From positions 372,001-436,000 of the forward strand of contig PGYK01000001.1 in assembly GCA_002839605.1 (NCBI GenBank): DNA of 64,000 nucleotides, given 5' to 3'. Shown here piece by piece: positions 6,664 to 17,990 of this stretch. A model generated the notes under the pieces. It was not told where the DNA came from. It saw only the letters and a program-made list of their open reading frames with translations, and searched no databases. Numbering within the stretch: position 1 is the stretch's first letter; every line of letters starts with the position of its first letter. Position numbers and translations under genes: made by a program. The stretch is from Methanomicrobiales archaeon HGW-Methanomicrobiales-3. GTDB lineage: Archaea > Halobacteriota > Methanomicrobia > Methanomicrobiales > Methanospirillaceae.

Positions 6664-9600
6664 ATGATCTCTGTGCTGTACGTGGACGATGAACCCGACC
6701 TCTGCGAGCTGGGCCAGCTCTTCCTTGAGCAGTCCGGCGAAATGAAGGTCGATACCTGCACCTCTGCTAAGGAAGCTCTCGCCTCACCCGGATTCTCCCA
6801 GTATGACGCAGTCATCTCCGATTACCAGATGCCGGAGATGGACGGGATTGAGTTTTTACAGGCCGTGCGGGCAGAACACGGCGATCTCCCGTTCATCCTC
6901 TTCACCGGGCGGGGCAGGGAAGAGATCGTGATCGCGGCTATCAACCACGGGGTTGATTTTTATCTCCAGAAAGGCGGCGATCCCACCTCCCAGTTTGCCG
7001 AGCTTGCCCACAAGATCCGGATCGCGGTGGAACGGCGGCGTGCAAAGACTGCCCTGAAAAACTCCGAACACCGGTTTGCAGATATCATCAACTTCCTGCC
7101 CGACGCCACGTTTGCAATCGACCGGGAAGGGAAAGTGATCGCGTGGAACCGTGCCATGGAGGAGATGACGGATGTCCCTGCCGGGGAGATGCTGGGGAAG
7201 AGCGACCACGAGTACGGGCTGCCGTTCTACGGGGAGAAACGGCCGATTTTAATCGATCTTGTGTTCCGGGATGAGGAGGAGATCCGGACCCGGTATCCGT
7301 TTGTTGAGCGAAAAGAAGACAAGTTCATCTCGGAGATCTACATCCCGCGCCTGTATGGCGGAAAGGGGGCGTACCTGTGGTTCATCGCATCGCCCCTCTA
7401 TGATTCAGAGGGGGAGATTGTCGGGGCGGTTGAATCGATCCGGGACATCACGGACCGGAAGAGTGCAGAAGCGGCACTCTCCGAATCAGAGCAGCGGCTC
7501 AACAACATCATCAACTTCCTGCCCGACGCGACCCTGGCGGTAGATCTCGAGGGCCGGGTCATTGCATGGAACAAAGCAATCGAGGAGATGACGAATGTCC
7601 CTGCCGGGGAGATGCTGGGAAAGGGCGACCATGAATATGCCCTTCCGTTCTACGGAAAAAGGCGGAAGATCTTCCTTGACCTGATCTCCAATCCCGATGA
7701 TACCATTGCAGGTGAATACACGCATCTCGTACGGGAGAAGGATACCCTGATTGCCGAGACAAATCTCACCCGCCCGAAGGGTCAGAGTGTATCGCTGATG
7801 GTGAAGGCAAGCCCGCTCTATAACCGGCAGGGGGAGGTGGTCGGCGCTATCGAGTCGATGCGGGACATCACGGACCTGCGAAAAGCCGAGGAGGACGCAA
7901 TCCACACCCGAAAGGACTGGGAGACGATCTTCCGGGCCATCGGTCACCCGGCAATTATTCTTAACCCGGACAACCGGATCATCGATGCTAACGATGCCAT
8001 GGTTCGTGCCGCAAAACTGCCACTCTCTGACCTGCTTGGGAAGGCATGCTACGAGGTCTTCCATGCACCGGGGACAACCGCCCCCCCCAAACATTGCCCG
8101 TTCGAACAGGTAAAAACACACCCGATCACCGGGACCATGGAGGAGGACATCGAGGCGCTCGGAGGATATTATCATGTCAGCTGCACTCCCGTTTACACGG
8201 CAGACGGGACGCTTGAGAAGGTCATCCATATCGCCATGGACGTTACTGAACAGCGTCGGATCCGGGAGGAACTCACCGCAGCTTTGGAACAGATGACTGC
8301 ATCGCAGGAGCAGCTCAAAGCGCAGTTTGACGAGCTTGCAGCAAGCGAGCAGCGTATCCGCGAGAGCGAGGCAAAGTATCGCGAGCTTGCCGATTTGCTC
8401 CCCCAGGTAGTCTTCGAGATGGACCTTGACGGGAAGATAACGTACGCAAACGGGTATGCCCTCACTACGTTCGGTATGACCGGAGAAGGGCTTCCTGCGG
8501 GCATGCATGCCCTTGACGCGATCCACCCGTCCGATCACGGGCGCATCAGGGCGAACATGGAGAAGCTTGCCCGCGGCATCCCCTTTGACGATCACGAGTA
8601 CACCGCCGTTCGCTCTGACGGCTCACCCTTCCCCGTCGTTGTTTACAGTTCGCCCATCCATAAATCGGGACGGCTGATCGGGTTCAGGGGGATTATGGCC
8701 GACGTCTCGATTCTCAGGAAGGCCGAGGAGGCGCTCCGTGAGAGTGAGGAGAAGTACCGGATCCTCTTCAATAATGTCAACGACGCGATTTACCTGCATG
8801 AACTCCTGCCCGATGGTACTCCCGGCAGGTTCATTGAAGTTAACGAAGTGATGTGCACCCGCCTTGGTTATACCCGTGAGGAGCTGATCAGATTATCCGT
8901 CAGGGACATCGTCTCTTCAGCCCATCTTCCGAAAATGCAGGAGATCAGGGCCCGGATCCAGAAGGAGGGTCACCTGACCTTCATTGCCGAACACAAACGA
9001 AAAGACGCATCTCTCATCCCTGTGGAGGTCAACACCCGTCACTTCATCCTGAACCAAAAGCCCATTGTTCTTGCCTCGGCAAGGGATATCACAGATCGCC
9101 GGAGGCTCAAGGAAGAGAACCGCGTCCGCCAGCAGCAGCTGGACAACCTGCTCCAGAACGTTCCCGCAGGGATCTTCCGGACAACCATTGCACTGCCGGC
9201 ACAGCGGGTCATGGCAAATCCGGTGCTTGCCCAAATCTTCGGGTATGACTCCGTAGAGGAGTTCATGGCAAGCCCTCTTGATGAGTCCTATGTTGATAGT
9301 AAGGACCGGCAGGATATTGTCGAGCGCCTCCTCCGGGAAGGGGTTGTTTCAAACGCCGAGATACGGATGAAGAAGAAGGACGGCGAACACATCTGGGTCA
9401 GCATGTCAGCGGTTGCTGTTCCCGGCCCGGACGGTGCGATGCAGTACCTCGACGGGGTCCTCACGGATATCACGGCAAAAAAGAAAACCGAGGAGGCGCT
9501 CATCGAAGCCAACCGGAAGCTCAAGCTTCTCAACAGCGTCACCCGCCATGATATTACGAACCAGCTCCTCGCCCTCAATGGTTTCCTGCAGGTTGCATCA

Positions 9601-10137
9601 TCCAGGACAACGGATCCCGTGATGGTGGATTACCTCGCAAAGTTCCAGCGGATCGCCGAGACGATTTCGAGCCACATAGAATTTACAAGGGCATACCAGG
9701 AGCTGGGGATCAATGTCCCGGCATGGCTTCAGGTCGCTGACGTGATCAGGAAGACTCCGGGGAGCCATCCGGTTTCCTGTGACGGGTCCTGTCAGAAGAT
9801 CGAGATCTTTTCAGACCCAATGCTGGAACGCGTCTTTTTTAACCTGTTCGAGAATTCCGTCCGTCACGGGGAGCATGTAACAGGGATTGTGGTCCGTTGT
9901 GAACCGGCAGGGGAAAATCTCCGGATCATTATCGAGGATGACGGGGTCGGGATTCCCCAAAGCGATAAGGCGAAGATCTTCAACCGGGGGTTCGGGAAGA
10001 ACACGGGTCTTGGCCTCTTCCTGGTCAGGGAGATCCTTACCATCACCGGCATAACGATTGAGGAGACGGGGACGCCCGGTAACGGGGCGCGGTTCGAGAT
10101 GCTCGTCCCCAAAGGCGCATTCCGATACGGCGGGTAA
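6664..10137 (+). CDS. Hybrid sensor histidine kinase: receiver domain, six PAS-type domains, kinase core
   Basis: The 1157-residue cytoplasmic protein begins with a receiver domain (about 1-120) with Asp8, Asp9 and phosphoacceptor Asp53 in VISDYQMP. Six PAS-type domains follow to about residue 940; the first two are nearly duplicate copies (NFLPDAT...DVPAGEMLGK and NFLPDAT...NVPAGEMLGK). A coiled coil sits near residue 540. The kinase core has the phosphoacceptor in SVTRHDITNQ, an N-box FFNLFENSVRHG, and the G-boxes EDDGVGIP and GLGLFLVREI. No membrane segment is seen. A TATA-like TTTTTTATATTCC lies about 40 bases upstream. No DNA-binding response regulator is adjacent, so the output partner is unknown. 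Confidence 0.9.
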   Translation: MISVLYVDDEPDLCELGQLFLEQSGEMKVDTCTSAKEALASPGFSQYDAVISDYQMPEMDGIEFLQAVRAEHGDLPFILFTGRGREEIVIAAINHGVDFYLQKGGDPTSQFAELAHKIRIAVERRRAKTALKNSEHRFADIINFLPDATFAIDREGKVIAWNRAMEEMTDVPAGEMLGKSDHEYGLPFYGEKRPILIDLVFRDEEEIRTRYPFVERKEDKFISEIYIPRLYGGKGAYLWFIASPLYDSEGEIVGAVESIRDITDRKSAEAALSESEQRLNNIINFLPDATLAVDLEGRVIAWNKAIEEMTNVPAGEMLGKGDHEYALPFYGKRRKIFLDLISNPDDTIAGEYTHLVREKDTLIAETNLTRPKGQSVSLMVKASPLYNRQGEVVGAIESMRDITDLRKAEEDAIHTRKDWETIFRAIGHPAIILNPDNRIIDANDAMVRAAKLPLSDLLGKACYEVFHAPGTTAPPKHCPFEQVKTHPITGTMEEDIEALGGYYHVSCTPVYTADGTLEKVIHIAMDVTEQRRIREELTAALEQMTASQEQLKAQFDELAASEQRIRESEAKYRELADLLPQVVFEMDLDGKITYANGYALTTFGMTGEGLPAGMHALDAIHPSDHGRIRANMEKLARGIPFDDHEYTAVRSDGSPFPVVVYSSPIHKSGRLIGFRGIMADVSILRKAEEALRESEEKYRILFNNVNDAIYLHELLPDGTPGRFIEVNEVMCTRLGYTREELIRLSVRDIVSSAHLPKMQEIRARIQKEGHLTFIAEHKRKDASLIPVEVNTRHFILNQKPIVLASARDITDRRRLKEENRVRQQQLDNLLQNVPAGIFRTTIALPAQRVMANPVLAQIFGYDSVEEFMASPLDESYVDSKDRQDIVERLLREGVVSNAEIRMKKKDGEHIWVSMSAVAVPGPDGAMQYLDGVLTDITAKKKTEEALIEANRKLKLLNSVTRHDITNQLLALNGFLQVASSRTTDPVMVDYLAKFQRIAETISSHIEFTRAYQELGINVPAWLQVADVIRKTPGSHPVSCDGSCQKIEIFSDPMLERVFFNLFENSVRHGEHVTGIVVRCEPAGENLRIIIEDDGVGIPQSDKAKIFNRGFGKNTGLGLFLVREILTITGITIEETGTPGNGARFEMLVPKGAFRYGG

Positions 10138-10203: not shown

Positions 10204-13101
10204 TCACGGGCCTGTCGTGACCTTCCGGTAACCGTCCTTTGGCACGGTGATCTCAAACTGAACCCCACTTCCCGGCACCCCGTTCTCAGTGATGGAAATG
10301 CCGGTGATTGCGAGAATCTCCTGCGAGAGAAAGAGGCCAAGCCCGGTATGTTTGCCAAAACCTTTCCGGAAGAGCTTCTTTTTGTCAGCTTCCGTGATCC
10401 CCACCCCATTGTCGCGATAGGTTATGACAAGGCCAGTCTCCGTCTCACGGGCCGAAAATAACATCTCCGTGACATGCTCCCCGTGACGCTGCGAGTTCTC
10501 CATGAGGTTGAAGAAGACCTTGACGATCAGGGGGTCAGAAAAGATCTCGGTGTTGGAGACCTCGATGTGGATATCGACCCCTTCGGGGCTGAGCTGGTCT
10601 TTTGCCTCGTAAATGACGGACTCCGCATCCTGCCACCGCGGCGCATTGACCCCGATGTCCTGGTAATATTTCGTAAACTCGATCTGCCGCTGGATCGCCT
10701 CTGCCGCCTGGTCCTCTTTGTCGATGAATGCTTCGTACTGCGTGCCTTTGAGGTCTTCTTTTGAGAGTTCGAGATATGCCCGGAGGCCCATGATCTGGTT
10801 CAGGATATCGTGCCGGGTGATCGAAGAGAGCATGTTGAGCTTTTTGATCGCCCCTTTGAGCGCCTCCTCGATCTTCTTCCGCTCCGAGATATCCCGTATG
10901 ATCCCTTCTGTCCCCTCGTAATCGCCGCTCGTGTCCCGGCGCAGGCGGGCACTGATCGAGACCCAGAACGCCGACCCATCGGTCCTGACAAACTCGGTCT
11001 CCCAGTCCTGGACAACACCCCTGCCGGCCCTGAGCGCAGCAAGAAACTCTTCCCGTCGTGCAGGGTCTTTCCAGAGGGTAGTGACCGGTCTCCCTGCGAT
11101 GTCGTGGGGAGGAATGACCCGGAACATGGTTATGGCAGATGGGCTTGCCATGGCAATGCGGTTCTCGCGGTCCACCTGGAAGTATACGTCCTGGAGGTTC
11201 TCGATGATCCCCCGGTACCGCTCCTCGCTCTGCTGTAGTGCCTCTTCAGCACGTTTCCGTTCGGTAACGTCACGGTCTATCCCCCGGTACCCGGTAAACA
11301 CGCCGTCTTTTGAAAAGACCGGCACCCCGCTTGTCTCCAGTACGACCCCCTGCCCGTCCTTGCGGATGTTCCGGTTCTCGATTGCGGAGAACGGCAGGTG
11401 CCCGGCCATGTACGGGTCGAATATCACGTGCACGCGTTCCACCTCGTCCTGCGGCATGAAATCGAACGGTGTTCTGCCGATCACCTCATCGGGTGAATAC
11501 CCCAGCATCCCGCGTACCTGCGGGCTCGCGTAGGTATACGCGCCGGTCTCATCAACCTCCCAGATGAAATCATTGGTTGTCTCTACAAGCGACCGGAATT
11601 TCTGCTCGCTCTTCTGGAGCGCCTGTTCGGCATTGACCCGGGCGGTCACATCATGGATGACCCCCTCGATACCCTGTATGGTCCCCCGTGCGTCCTTGTA
11701 AAAGTGACTGCTCGATGTCACGTGCCGGGTCATGCCGAGCCGGTCTTTGAGCCGGAGCGGATATGCGTATACCGATCCTTTCTTTTTTAATGCTGCAAGG
11801 AACTGGTCACGTTCGGTCGGATCGGCGTACAGCACCGAGACGTTCTGCCCGATCAGGGATTCGGGGGAATCATACCCGCCTATCCGTATCCCGTTGGGGC
11901 TGACCATGGTGATGTTACCATCGAGATCCGTGCGGTAGAAGATGTCCTGCATGTTCTCGATGATGCTCCGGTAATTCTCTTCGCTCTCCCGCAGTGCCAG
12001 TTCGGCCCGGATCCTCTCGGCAATCTCCATCTCGCGGGCCTTCATGGCAAGACTCAGGTCAGTATGCGTGCGGGCGATGGTGATGGCAAGCCCGGCAATC
12101 TGGCTGATGAAATGGGTCAGGTTGATGTATTCATCCCGTGCTTCCGGAATCGAGACATGGTCAACCGAGAGGGTGCCGATCAAACTCCCGCCCGACTCCA
12201 CGGAAAAGAGGAAACTCTCCCCGTCTTCATTCCGGAAATAAAGTTGGGACGGATCTCTCTTCTGCCCGAAATGTGCCGGAGAAGGGTAGGCATGCGGGGG
12301 GATGCTCAGGATCTCGCCGGATCCCTGGTCGGTTGCCGGCAGGAACCCGACGCTCTTTGGCGAACAGATGGTGACGATCAGGTCAAGCACGTGATGGATG
12401 ACGGTCTTCTCGTCATGGATCCCGATGAGCCTGCCGGTAAGGTCAGCGACCATCGAGTAATCGGCCACGCGTTTCTCGGCCTGGCGGAGGGTTGATGCAC
12501 AGGATCCTCTCTCCTGAACTATCTGCCACTTACGGTATTCTGCGTTCAGGAGGCAGCTGAAATGCGCAAGGCCAACGGGGAGTGTCCGTGCAGGAAGCCC
12601 CGTAAAATCAGAGAACTCTGCAAGGACTGGCCCGGTACCGGCATGAACCCCCGTCTCAAGGAGAACGATTTCGGTAAGCGATTCGCCAAACATCTGCCGT
12701 GCAGTGGAACTGTCAAGCCCGTCACTCTCTGCATTCTGCCTCCACCGCATGAGCCAGCCGGGGAGGATCAGGTACGACCCCCGCTTCCGGAAATCTTCCA
12801 CGAGTGCTTCAGGAAGAAAGAACTGTGCCCCGGAACCTGTCAGCACGAGCGAAGGGTTATCTTTGACATCCCGGGGGATATCCATGGTGTTGGCGCACCC
12901 GCACCCGCAGAGGCAGATCGCGTTACCTGCCCCGGCCTGCTGTCCGAACTGGTCTTTTATGGTATCCCACACGGACCGGACATGGCCGCAGTGGAAGGGA
13001 AAGGACAGAGCCACTGCAAGGGGCATATCAGCGGAGGACAGTATTGCATCCACCTCGGGCCGGATATTTTCGCAGCAGAGGATGACGAACCGTTCTTCCA
13101 T
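10204..13101 (-). CDS. Sensor histidine kinase with DUF1638-like N-terminus, GAF and three PAS domains
   Basis: The 965-residue protein ends the corrinoid operon, starting 3 bases after the methyltransferase gene. Residues 1-205 resemble DUF1638: an early FVILCCENIRPEV strand, a cysteine-rich CLCGCGC segment, SYLILPGWL, and a late VLLETGVHAGTG segment. A GAF-type domain follows at about 215-345, then PAS domains at about 375-490, 500-620 and 625-745. The kinase core carries SITRHDILNQ, the N-box FFNLMENSQRHG and GLGLFLSQEI. No transmembrane helix is present. DUF1638 proteins are commonly encoded beside corrinoid methyltransferases, so the kinase may read methyl-corrinoid status. That role is inference; the DUF1638 match is by eye. 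Confidence 0.85.
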   Translation of the reverse strand: MEERFVILCCENIRPEVDAILSSADMPLAVALSFPFHCGHVRSVWDTIKDQFGQQAGAGNAICLCGCGCANTMDIPRDVKDNPSLVLTGSGAQFFLPEALVEDFRKRGSYLILPGWLMRWRQNAESDGLDSSTARQMFGESLTEIVLLETGVHAGTGPVLAEFSDFTGLPARTLPVGLAHFSCLLNAEYRKWQIVQERGSCASTLRQAEKRVADYSMVADLTGRLIGIHDEKTVIHHVLDLIVTICSPKSVGFLPATDQGSGEILSIPPHAYPSPAHFGQKRDPSQLYFRNEDGESFLFSVESGGSLIGTLSVDHVSIPEARDEYINLTHFISQIAGLAITIARTHTDLSLAMKAREMEIAERIRAELALRESEENYRSIIENMQDIFYRTDLDGNITMVSPNGIRIGGYDSPESLIGQNVSVLYADPTERDQFLAALKKKGSVYAYPLRLKDRLGMTRHVTSSSHFYKDARGTIQGIEGVIHDVTARVNAEQALQKSEQKFRSLVETTNDFIWEVDETGAYTYASPQVRGMLGYSPDEVIGRTPFDFMPQDEVERVHVIFDPYMAGHLPFSAIENRNIRKDGQGVVLETSGVPVFSKDGVFTGYRGIDRDVTERKRAEEALQQSEERYRGIIENLQDVYFQVDRENRIAMASPSAITMFRVIPPHDIAGRPVTTLWKDPARREEFLAALRAGRGVVQDWETEFVRTDGSAFWVSISARLRRDTSGDYEGTEGIIRDISERKKIEEALKGAIKKLNMLSSITRHDILNQIMGLRAYLELSKEDLKGTQYEAFIDKEDQAAEAIQRQIEFTKYYQDIGVNAPRWQDAESVIYEAKDQLSPEGVDIHIEVSNTEIFSDPLIVKVFFNLMENSQRHGEHVTEMLFSARETETGLVITYRDNGVGITEADKKKLFRKGFGKHTGLGLFLSQEILAITGISITENGVPGSGVQFEITVPKDGYRKVTTGP

Positions 13102-13104
13102 TGG

Positions 13105-14145
13105 TCACTCCGCAAGGGGGTACGTGCCGTATTTTTTCACCGCGGAGCTAATCGCCATCAGGACACGGTCAGGGACCTGCCAGGGAATCTCACCGTGGTT
13201 GTCCGAGAGGATAAACCCGCCCCCCTTTCCTGCCCGGGCGATTGTCTCTCTCACCCTTGCCTCTGCAATCTCCGGCGTCCAGCGCCGCATTTCGATACCG
13301 TTGAGGTTCCCAAGCACGGTGAGCCGTTTGTTGCAGGCCTGTTTCACCTCACCGATGTTCTCAAGGGCGCTTGTCCCGACAATGGCGGTGCCGGTGGTGG
13401 CAAGATCATCGATGATAGCAAGTGCGCGGCCGGAGGCGAGGTGAGTCGCTGTCGGCCCCTTGATCCGGGCGATCGTCTCCTTTGCAACCACCATGCCGGT
13501 CTTCCGGTACAGTTCCGGCGGGACACTGGTCGGGGACGAGACCGGGTCGAAGTAACAGATGGCGTGGGCGCCGGCTTCCAGCTGGGCATTTGCCCAGTCA
13601 ATACAGAACTGTTGGTTCTTCTTCATCAGCTCCCAGAACAGGTCCTTTTGCGTGTACATCAGGTCCAGATATGGTTCGAAGCCCATCTGCATTACCGGGA
13701 CCGAGAACGGCGACATCACAACACCGACAACCGGGATCTTGCCGGCAGATTGTGCTGCAAGCCCCCGGATACAGTCGGTAATCTTTTTGAGGCTTTCACA
13801 CGATGCGACTTCCGGCACGTCAATGGATACGATATCCTGCGGGGAGCGGATGATCGGTCGCCCCGCATTGGGCGGTCCGTCTGTGATATAGATGACATCG
13901 CCACCCCATGCTTCGACTTCTGCGGAGGCATAGAAGAACGGGTAATAACAATCGCTATCATATTTTTTCTGGAGAATCGTCTGCCCCCTGATGACATTCT
14001 CTGCCCGGGAGTAGTATTCCCGGATGGATAGGTTCAGCTCTTTTGCCCCGTGCATCGTGGTCAGGAGAAAGAGCGGGACCCGGTCCGGCTCTTTCTGGCC
14101 GATAGCAGTCATCGTGCGCTCGAATGGTGTCATGATATCGGTCAT
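13105..14145 (-). CDS. UroD-superfamily corrinoid methyltransferase homologue (MtaA/MtbA-like)
   Basis: The 346-residue protein follows the uroporphyrinogen-decarboxylase fold used by methylcobamide:coenzyme M methyltransferases. The start MTPFERTMTAIGQKEPDRVP is typical. Its ATG overlaps the stop of the corrinoid-protein gene by 4 bases, which couples the two. In MtaA/MtbA a zinc ion activates CoM through an HxC...C triad. Here the first motif reads THLASG (His235, Ala at the Cys position) and the second reads DNHGEIP (His317 where Cys is usual). It may therefore use another metal geometry or methyl acceptor, or be purely regulatory. I leave the gene symbol empty for that reason. Confidence 0.8.
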   Translation of the reverse strand: MTDIMTPFERTMTAIGQKEPDRVPLFLLTTMHGAKELNLSIREYYSRAENVIRGQTILQKKYDSDCYYPFFYASAEVEAWGGDVIYITDGPPNAGRPIIRSPQDIVSIDVPEVASCESLKKITDCIRGLAAQSAGKIPVVGVVMSPFSVPVMQMGFEPYLDLMYTQKDLFWELMKKNQQFCIDWANAQLEAGAHAICYFDPVSSPTSVPPELYRKTGMVVAKETIARIKGPTATHLASGRALAIIDDLATTGTAIVGTSALENIGEVKQACNKRLTVLGNLNGIEMRRWTPEIAEARVRETIARAGKGGGFILSDNHGEIPWQVPDRVLMAISSAVKKYGTYPLAE

Positions 14146-14801
14146 TGCCCATCACCCCCCGCCATCTCCTTCACCAGCGCAAGTGTGTCGGATGCCGTAT
14201 GTCCCATGGCATCGGCACCAACTTCATGCCAGAGTGTGGAGTCGAAGTTGAAGGGTGCTCCCCCGACGATCACCTTTGTCTGTGGCTGCGCTTTTTTAAT
14301 TTCTGCAATCGCTTGTTTTGCCCGGAGGGCTGCCGGAAGCATCAGGGTGGAGATGAGGAGGATCCTGATGTTATCCTTCGCGACCAGCTTCACGAGATCT
14401 TCAGCCATGACCCCGTGGCCGTAATCGGAGATCTCGTACCCTCCGGCCCGGAGCACTGAAACAACGATCCTCTTCCCGAGCGTATGGTGGTCCTCGAGCA
14501 CCGCGATTGCCATCTTCGGCTGTCCGATCCGCTGCGGGTCCCCGGGCGGGAGCATGGCGTCCACGATCTCCTCGCAGATCCGCCCGCTCATGTACACCTG
14601 CGAGAGCGCGACATCGCCAGCCTCCCATCGGCGGCCTACCTCCTCGAGTGCCGGCACAACGAGTGTCTCAAGGCACACGAACGGGGAACCGGGCGTGCAG
14701 GTCTCTTTGACGATCCTTCCCGCTTTCACCCGGTCAACAGAAAGGAGAGCCTCCTCCATCTCTGCGAGATTGGCTGATGGCGGGGCAACAGGACTTGTCA
14801 T
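14142..14801 (-). CDS. Corrinoid (B12-binding) methyltransferase protein
   Basis: The 219-residue protein has the two-domain layout of methyltransferase corrinoid subunits. Residues 10-90 form the helical cap domain. The B12-binding Rossmann domain follows, with the DxHxxG motif as EDHHTLG (Asp104, His106, Gly109), where His106 would be the lower cobalt ligand. Later GHGVMAEDLV and VGGAPFNF match the fold. Such proteins carry methyl groups between a substrate-specific methyltransferase and an acceptor enzyme. No substrate methyltransferase (MtaB, MtmB, MtsB type) is present here; the next gene is the UroD-type partner and the third is a sensor kinase. Confidence 0.9.
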   Translation of the reverse strand: MTSPVAPPSANLAEMEEALLSVDRVKAGRIVKETCTPGSPFVCLETLVVPALEEVGRRWEAGDVALSQVYMSGRICEEIVDAMLPPGDPQRIGQPKMAIAVLEDHHTLGKRIVVSVLRAGGYEISDYGHGVMAEDLVKLVAKDNIRILLISTLMLPAALRAKQAIAEIKKAQPQTKVIVGGAPFNFDSTLWHEVGADAMGHTASDTLALVKEMAGGDGQ

Positions 14802-14821: not shown

Positions 14822-14835
14822 GCTATAAAAATATG
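14822..14835 (-). promoter_or_regulatory. TATA box of the corrinoid operon
   Basis: On the minus strand ATATTTTTATAGC is centred about 27 bases before the ATG of the corrinoid-protein gene. That implies a nearly leaderless transcript covering the three-gene operon. Confidence 0.6.
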
Positions 14836-16517: not shown

Positions 16518-17990
16518 ATGCCGCAGGAAGCCCCGTTTGAGCAGCAGGCACCCGGAAAATACTCAATTTTCGGCTGCGGGACGAACGGATACAACATCAT
16601 ATCAGAACTCGTAAAAGAGAACGAGCGCGTGGTGGTCATTGACAAGGACGAGTCCCGGGTGCGGCACCTCCGCGACCAGAAGTTCGATGCCTACCAGCGC
16701 GATATCGCCTCTTCCGAGATGCTCGCGGGGCTCCCGCTCTTCGAGATAGCCTTCGTGATGACCGGTGATCCGGACGCCAACCTTGCGGCAACTGCCACCA
16801 TCAGGAAACGCTACCCCCTCGCACAGGTGGTTGCCCGGGCAACAGACCCGGTGAACGGCGAGCGTCTCACGGCAGCAGGAGCAGATGTCGTCCTCTACCC
16901 GCAGGAGGTAGTGGCCCGGTCCGCAATCCTCCAGATTAAAAAGCAGCATGCAAGCCGGATCGCGCAGCGGCTGTTCAGCCTTATTGCAGGCTGGGAAGGA
17001 ACGCTTGGGATCATCACCCACAAGAACCCGGACCCGGACGCGATCGCGTCAGCCATGGCGCTTGCGGGGATCGCAAAACATGCCAACCCCACAACCCTCT
17101 CGACACGGATCTTCTATGAAGGCAACATCGGTCACCAGGAGAACCGGACGTTCGTGAACCTGCTGGACATCAAGATGGAGCGCCTGACTCCGGAAGCCCT
17201 CCTCCAGTGCAACTACCTTGCGATGGTCGACTGTTCCGGCCCGGGCTCGAACAACGATGTCCCGCCCCAGACGAAGATCCACATCGTCATCGATCACCAC
17301 CGTGACGGGAAATACACCCCGGCACAGGGGGCATTCACGGACATACGGCCGGGCGTTGGCGCCACGGCAAGCATCATCACTCAGTACCTGCAGGAACTTG
17401 ACGTGCCTGTCGACAAACGAGTGGCAACTGCTCTCCTGTACGGGATCCGTACCGATACCCGGGACTTCCGTCGCAACGTCACCCCGCAGGATATGAGTTA
17501 TGCCGGCTTCCTCCTGCCCCTGACCGACGCGGACCTGCTCGACAAGATCATGTCGCCGTCCATGTCGCAGGAGACGCTTGACGTCATCGGCACGGCAATC
17601 ACCAGCCGGAAGGTCCAGAGCGGCTACCTCTTCTCCAATGTGGGTTTTGTCATGAACCGCGACGCATTGCCGCAGGCAGCCGATATCCTGATCACGCTCG
17701 AAGGGGTGAACACCGCACTTGTGTATGGCATCACGGATACCGCGATCGTCATCTCGGCCCGGAACCGCGACATCCGTCTGCACGTGGGTAACGCCCTCTC
17801 AGAAGCGTTCGGAGATATGGGCGATGCGGGCGGCCACCCGAACATGGGGGCAGCAAGCCTGCCCCTCCATTACTTCGGTCAGGTGGAAGACAAGGAGCAG
17901 CTGCTCGAAATCGTGATCGAGCCGGTGCTCCAGAAGTTCAAGAACCTTGTCGGACTTGAGAACGAGGGGAAGAAAAATGGCGGACAATAA
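16518..17990 (+). CDS. RCK (TrkA-N) domain fused to DHH-family phosphoesterase
   Basis: The 490-residue protein starts with a nucleotide-binding Rossmann domain (residues 13-140, FGCGTNGYNII) of the RCK/TrkA-N type. A DHH phosphoesterase follows: THKNPDPDAIASAMAL (motif I), MVDCSGPG (motif II) and IDHHRDGK (motif III). A DHHA1-like domain with GDAGGHPNMGAAS ends the protein. The same architecture occurs in archaeal proteins thought to hydrolyse cyclic dinucleotides or short oligonucleotides, with the RCK part sensing a nucleotide. Residues for two metal ions are intact. It is followed 83 bases downstream by mptE. Confidence 0.85.
   Translation: MPQEAPFEQQAPGKYSIFGCGTNGYNIISELVKENERVVVIDKDESRVRHLRDQKFDAYQRDIASSEMLAGLPLFEIAFVMTGDPDANLAATATIRKRYPLAQVVARATDPVNGERLTAAGADVVLYPQEVVARSAILQIKKQHASRIAQRLFSLIAGWEGTLGIITHKNPDPDAIASAMALAGIAKHANPTTLSTRIFYEGNIGHQENRTFVNLLDIKMERLTPEALLQCNYLAMVDCSGPGSNNDVPPQTKIHIVIDHHRDGKYTPAQGAFTDIRPGVGATASIITQYLQELDVPVDKRVATALLYGIRTDTRDFRRNVTPQDMSYAGFLLPLTDADLLDKIMSPSMSQETLDVIGTAITSRKVQSGYLFSNVGFVMNRDALPQAADILITLEGVNTALVYGITDTAIVISARNRDIRLHVGNALSEAFGDMGDAGGHPNMGAASLPLHYFGQVEDKEQLLEIVIEPVLQKFKNLVGLENEGKKNGGQ

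Follow-up and report, generated by a model that had tools for sequence, protein, structure and literature searches.

What is the function of a corrinoid protein and a methyltransferase whose genes run directly into a gene for a sensor histidine kinase? The question is raised by a locus of the methanogen HGW-Methanomicrobiales-3, located in the window, that is the whole stretch of 64,000 nucleotides of DNA that was analysed. From the evidence set out below we conclude that the three genes are one example of a widespread signalling cassette.

Organisation of the three-gene locus

All three genes lie on the minus strand. The gene for the corrinoid (cobalamin-binding) protein (14142..14801, 219 aa) comes first, followed by that of a methyltransferase with the URO-D/MtaA fold (13105..14145, 346 aa) and by the sensor histidine kinase gene (10204..13101, 965 aa). 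The stop of the corrinoid gene and the start of the methyltransferase gene share 4 bases (14142-14145), and only 3 bases separate the methyltransferase stop (13105) from the ATG of the kinase (13101). A putative TATA-like promoter box, ATATTTTTATA, can be read from the minus strand at 14834-14824 (14824..14834), approximately 22-33 nt upstream of the corrinoid ATG; four related loci have a comparable box in the same position. The overlap, the short gap and the retained box make it very likely that the three genes form one transcription unit. The layout and the TATA box of the original prediction were thus confirmed. Elsewhere in the window (16518-17990, plus strand) a gene was found in which a TrkA-N domain is fused to DHH/DHHA1 phosphoesterase domains.

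The corrinoid protein and the methyltransferase

The corrinoid protein showed the typical elements of a cognate corrinoid protein, namely a helical cap and a B12-binding domain (Pfam B12-binding, 2.6e-18; B12-binding_2, 1.1e-11) together with the DxHxxG, SxL and GG motifs of base-off cobalamin binding (D104-x-H106-x-x-G109, S151-x-L153 and G180-G181). The cobalt-binding motif was retained in 103/104 relatives in the alignment. The curated score of TIGR02370 was not reached (75 bits vs 215).

The methyltransferase is clearly a member of the URO-D family (PF01208, 172 bits vs a cut-off of 23.9; E 2e-50) and its closest solved structure is MtaA (4ay7, E 3e-18), while the curated score for MtaA/CmuA (TIGR01463) was not reached (92 bits vs 235). 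The difference from the known enzymes is most evident at the metal site. In all 17 canonical MtaA/MtbA-type proteins compared, zinc is bound by HxC...C, whereas the cassette enzyme has H-x-A237 ... H317-G-E319 at this position. In other words, the first cysteine is replaced by alanine and the last by histidine, and an invariant glutamate follows two residues beyond this histidine. A237, H317 and E319 were found in each of the 105 relatives aligned. Since the HxC...C zinc site is lost, the cassette methyltransferase probably does not activate a thiol in the manner of MtaA; for the same reason a role as coenzyme M methyltransferase was set aside. Many polar residues are invariant in the alignment, which suggests an active or at least a ligand-binding site. 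The protein may use another metal or another substrate, or it may be a descendant that only binds its ligand. Among the three components, conservation is highest in this protein, with a mean identity of 62% over 51 loci (corrinoid protein 45%, DUF1638 domain 23%).

According to the original prediction the locus contains no substrate-specific methyltransferase. This is doubtful. The only methyltransferase of the locus lacks the thiol-activating zinc site of MtaA and MtbA, so that the signal molecule may well be encountered by this very enzyme.

Domain structure of the sensor kinase

Pfam searches, alignments and structural models divided the kinase into a DUF1638-like N-terminal domain (residues ~1-200; 12502..13101), a GAF domain (residues 206-362; 12016..12486), three PAS domains (residues ~370-745; 10867..11994, three stretches in Pfam), a HisKA-like helix and a HATPase catalytic domain (residues 859-956; 10234..10527; PF02518, 2.9e-12), all coordinates referring to the minus strand. 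The putative phospho-acceptor is H764 within SITRHDILNQ (codon 10810..10812, minus strand), in an alignment column that is at least 90% conserved among 26 kinases. With a conserved H-box histidine and a HATPase domain the protein has both hallmarks of a two-component kinase. PAS domains are a less constant element; they were present in only 10/26 archaeal relatives and many relatives have none.

It might be questioned whether the N-terminus is related to DUF1638 at all, as the original prediction had proposed. The window protein matched PF07796 over residues 105-182 (E 1.7e-4) with 22 bits, under the cut-off of 27 bits, but the family was matched by 50/57 other relatives (best 5.8e-15), and also by 12/26 archaeal sensors. 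A profile of the archaeal N-termini aligned with a canonical DUF1638 profile over 81 columns (E 2e-5, probability 77). The domain was modelled confidently as an alpha/beta fold (pLDDT 90). A search of the PDB with this model gave no match under E 0.001, the best hit (Z 8.4, rmsd 4.8 over 157 residues) being near background, and a sequence search found no solved DUF1638 structure. On the strength of the profile matches we conclude that the N-terminus is a divergent DUF1638 domain.

The GAF domain, which lies between the DUF1638 and PAS domains, had escaped the original prediction and was mostly missed by Pfam. Its model matched GAF structures over 150 residues (Z 16.2, rmsd 2.6). A GAF region was found in 83/83 third genes and is the sole domain common to all those examined.

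Conservation of the gene order

Two surveys approached the gene order from opposite ends of the locus. When 232 genomes of the order were searched with the N-terminal domain of the kinase, 26 carriers were found. The methyltransferase gene was directly upstream of the sensor gene in all of them, and a corrinoid gene was detected upstream of the methyltransferase in 25/26. The exception is a contig (L015/L040) with a shortened methyltransferase and no corrinoid match. In the second survey, 84,980 species genomes were scanned with a methyltransferase profile and the best 80 of 345 relatives were analysed. Among these best 80, three loci stop at a contig end, and a sensor gene stood beside the pair in 76 of the 77 that were testable. 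A DUF1638-type sensor adjoined the pair in 70 loci, six (L081, L082, L083, L089, L091 and L112) had a GAF protein without DUF1638, and L067 had neither type of sensor. DUF1638 is therefore not indispensable for the linkage. The order of the corrinoid and methyltransferase genes is inverted in L128, and the contig of L105 breaks off at the corrinoid end. Genomes of the kinase-first set recur in six of the 80 loci, and L029 (G188) and L075 are one and the same contig of 8869 bases.

Judging from their source names, the carriers include beta- and gammaproteobacteria, Desulfobacterota, Bacteroidota, Chloroflexota, Nitrospirae, Verrucomicrobia, Riflebacteria, Aminicenantes and SAR324 among the bacteria, and Methanosarcinaceae and Methanomassiliicoccaceae among the archaea. 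As a control, canonical MtaA/CmuA loci of methanogens were inspected, and no such sensor was found within ~1.5 kb in any of 20. The linkage (26/26 and 76/77 vs 0/20) thus far exceeds chance. The three-gene order is kept in relatives from many phyla and many of these relatives match DUF1638, so that the original prediction was not refuted and is supported in part.

Output domains and neighbouring signalling genes

The output of the third gene varies while the input pair is constant. Among 57 relatives, 45 had a HATPase domain and 5 had GGDEF, and some had additional response-regulator or Hpt domains. In several loci the output position is taken by a CxxC domain without any kinase. This short C-terminal domain (LPICxxCKxIRDDKGYW...FSHxICxxC) follows GAF in L081, L082, L083, L089, L091, L093, L112 and L130. 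No family was assigned to it in the Pfam tally; it may be an output or a metal-binding domain.

Signalling genes were also common next to the cassette. The next downstream gene on the same strand encoded a receiver in 15/24 loci and an EAL or GGDEF domain in 5/24, and upstream neighbours often had receivers, PAS or kinase domains. Large PAS/receiver signalling genes lie directly upstream in L030, L031, L033, L034 and L035, some of them overlapping the corrinoid gene. Receivers of a single subfamily, with 46-76% identity to that of Azoarcus, adjoin the cassette in 16 bacterial loci. In Azoarcus sp. KH32C the cassette, whose three proteins are WP_015451904/905/906, and a receiver-kinase protein are located on plasmid pAZKH (NC_020548.1, 271288-276437; L188/L189) within a methanol-oxidation island that comprises fae, fhc, mch and genes for a PQQ dehydrogenase and RuBisCO. 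A general link to methanol or formaldehyde was considered and rejected. Fae was found in just 3/40 bacterial carriers, so that methanol can account for one case at most.

The operon in the window contains no response regulator, and the receiver subfamily of the bacterial cassettes is also absent from the window. At the 3' end of the cassette lies a convergent gene (6664-10137, plus strand) for a receiver-PAS-histidine kinase hybrid of 1157 aa. In a sister locus (L028) the convergent gene has the same receiver-PAS layout, but a kinase domain was not detected at the chosen threshold; in another sister locus a PAS-kinase without receiver is encoded. The hybrid kinase at 6664-10137 is therefore at most a candidate partner of the cassette.

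The host genome and reductive activation

The host genome comprises 2.59 Mb in 18 contigs. Its single URO-D protein is the cassette methyltransferase, neither MTTB nor MtaB was found in it, and it encodes two B12-binding_2 proteins, that of the cassette and one other, and one DUF1638 protein. There is thus no evident methylotrophic pathway for the cassette to serve, and a methylotrophic role in this host is unlikely. The other B12-binding_2 protein, a stand-alone protein of 357 aa, is encoded on contig 7 (G000; L166, 1084-2157, minus strand). It does not have the full DxHxxG motif, the first Asp being changed to Glu, and the adjacent gene resembles that of a radical-SAM maturase; it may be another cobalamin regulator.

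Two activases of the RACo type are encoded on contigs other than that of the triad. In the order as a whole RACo was present in 21/26 carriers vs 113/206 other genomes (p 0.012, not corrected for phylogeny). Among the bacterial carriers it was found in 17/40 and not found in 23/40, including Thiocapsa marina and Zoogloea oleivorans, several of these assemblies being incomplete. A strict requirement for a RamA-type activase was rejected on this basis, and the cassette seems not to depend on RACo. In the many carriers that lack it, a repeated methyl cycle through Co(I) would need another reductant.

A model for signalling by the cassette

How might these components work together? The corrinoid protein and the URO-D-fold methyltransferase would form an input pair. 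A small methylated or methyl-accepting compound would react at the methyltransferase, and the corrinoid would thereby change in its methylation or its redox state. The sensor would dock on the corrinoid protein with its DUF1638 domain and relay the change through GAF to the output, a histidine kinase here and a diguanylate cyclase or another domain elsewhere. As the best model, we infer that the kinase reads either the methylation of the corrinoid or its redox state; docking, the nature of the readout and the direction of signalling are the inferred parts. The role given to DUF1638 is in keeping with its tie to corrinoid reactivation in Phaeobacter (PMC5764234), and a functional tie of this kind is also described elsewhere (PMC12478193). 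Over 51 loci, pairwise distances of the DUF1638 domain correlated best with those of the corrinoid protein (r 0.60) and less well with those of the methyltransferase (r 0.35) or of the GAF domain in the same sensor (r 0.36), values that are not corrected for species phylogeny. The reading of the locus as a sensory system, made in the original prediction, gains from the strict conservation of the triad, the exchange of outputs, the adjoining response regulators and a host without similar methyltransferases. That the kinase would respond to methyl transfer, as was also suggested there, is a further and more tentative step. Taken as a whole, with a methyl-transfer pair as input and the state of the corrinoid read by a DUF1638-GAF sensor, the model is in our view probably correct.

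The same components can be arranged differently. If the corrinoid were a gauge of redox state or oxygen, what the kinase reads would be Co(I)/Co(II), with the methyltransferase doing no more than resetting the cofactor. Such a gauge would suit the many carriers that lack a RamA-type activase, as well as the link of DUF1638 to redox reactivation of corrinoids, and the GAF model resembles the redox GAF of DosS, among many other GAF structures. Against it stands a methyltransferase that is the best conserved component and whose many invariant polar residues suggest specific recognition of a small molecule, and we consider the gauge unlikely. The high conservation of the methyltransferase also weighs against the proposal that the cassette reports cobamide supply, with the apo- or holo-form of the corrinoid protein setting kinase activity. 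As this proposal demands, almost every locus has a dedicated corrinoid protein, but the methyltransferase would be superfluous, and cobamide uptake or synthesis genes were not prominent among the commonest families in the neighbour tallies. A cobamide gauge is therefore very improbable.

Finally, the pair might be a small metabolic pathway for demethylation, and the kinase might merely regulate the pair and the genes around it. The methanol-oxidation island of Azoarcus KH32C is what one would expect in this case, but the scarcity of Fae among bacterial carriers is not, nor is the lack of a second methyltransferase or acceptor enzyme alongside. Moreover, DUF1638 is not a free protein but a fused part of the sensor, and it is the outputs that vary while the input pair is fixed. 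Such a pathway thus has a slim chance of being the answer. The preferred reading remains that of a methyl-transfer pair read by a sensor. Its broadest form, a chemosensor spanning phyla in which enzymatic methyl transfer to a corrinoid is the act of detection and DUF1638-GAF turns the state of the cobalt into a kinase or cyclic-di-GMP signal, is more tentative, and we would put its chances at slightly below even.

If this reading is right, corrinoid methyl transfer, known as a metabolic reaction, also serves to detect small methylated molecules, and the detector is shared by methanogens, Bacteroidota, Chloroflexota, sulfate reducers and sulfur oxidisers. DUF1638, which is needed for corrinoid function in Phaeobacter, would then serve to read or activate the corrinoid protein. 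The retention of a corrinoid methyltransferase pair by a methanogen that has no methylotrophic methyltransferases would be explained as well.

Comparison with known systems

No description of the cassette was found in the open-access papers searched. Each component is of a known kind, be it sensor kinase, corrinoid protein or URO-D methyltransferase; their fixed combination as an input that spans phyla and is joined to exchangeable outputs appears to be new. The sensor kinases RdmS and MsmS, likewise of methanogens, are encoded next to genes for methyl-sulfide methyltransferases and have GAF domains. The title of the report on RdmS of Methanosarcina acetivorans, as cited in PMC11784639, calls it a 'methyltransferase associated' kinase. 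Neither protein has an H-box, and RdmS has no autokinase activity (PMC11784639), whereas the cassette kinase has the conserved H764. A DUF1638 domain or a triad operon is not described for either of them in the literature consulted.

MtaA, MtbA and CmuA with their cognate corrinoid proteins share folds and pairing with the cassette but have the zinc ligands HxC...C, where the cassette has HxA...H and does not reach the curated subfamily scores. DUF1638 proteins such as PGA1_c13340 of Phaeobacter have the homologous domain in the same corrinoid context; they are free-standing, whereas in the cassette the domain is fused to a GAF-kinase. Type 1 mlp clusters (PMC10418091) combine MtaA-like proteins with a corrinoid protein and are, like the cassette, widespread in bacteria and archaea. 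They differ in having several Mlps and a reductive activase, in being confined to anaerobes and in that no kinase is mentioned (PMC10418091). Membership of the triad in this type was rejected, as it has one methyltransferase and no activase. CarH, a DNA-binding repressor that responds to light through adenosylcobalamin, and other cobalamin-based regulators use a B12-binding domain for sensing, as the cassette would do. In contrast to the CarH repressor, the B12 protein of the cassette is a separate protein that has a methyltransferase and a kinase as its partners.
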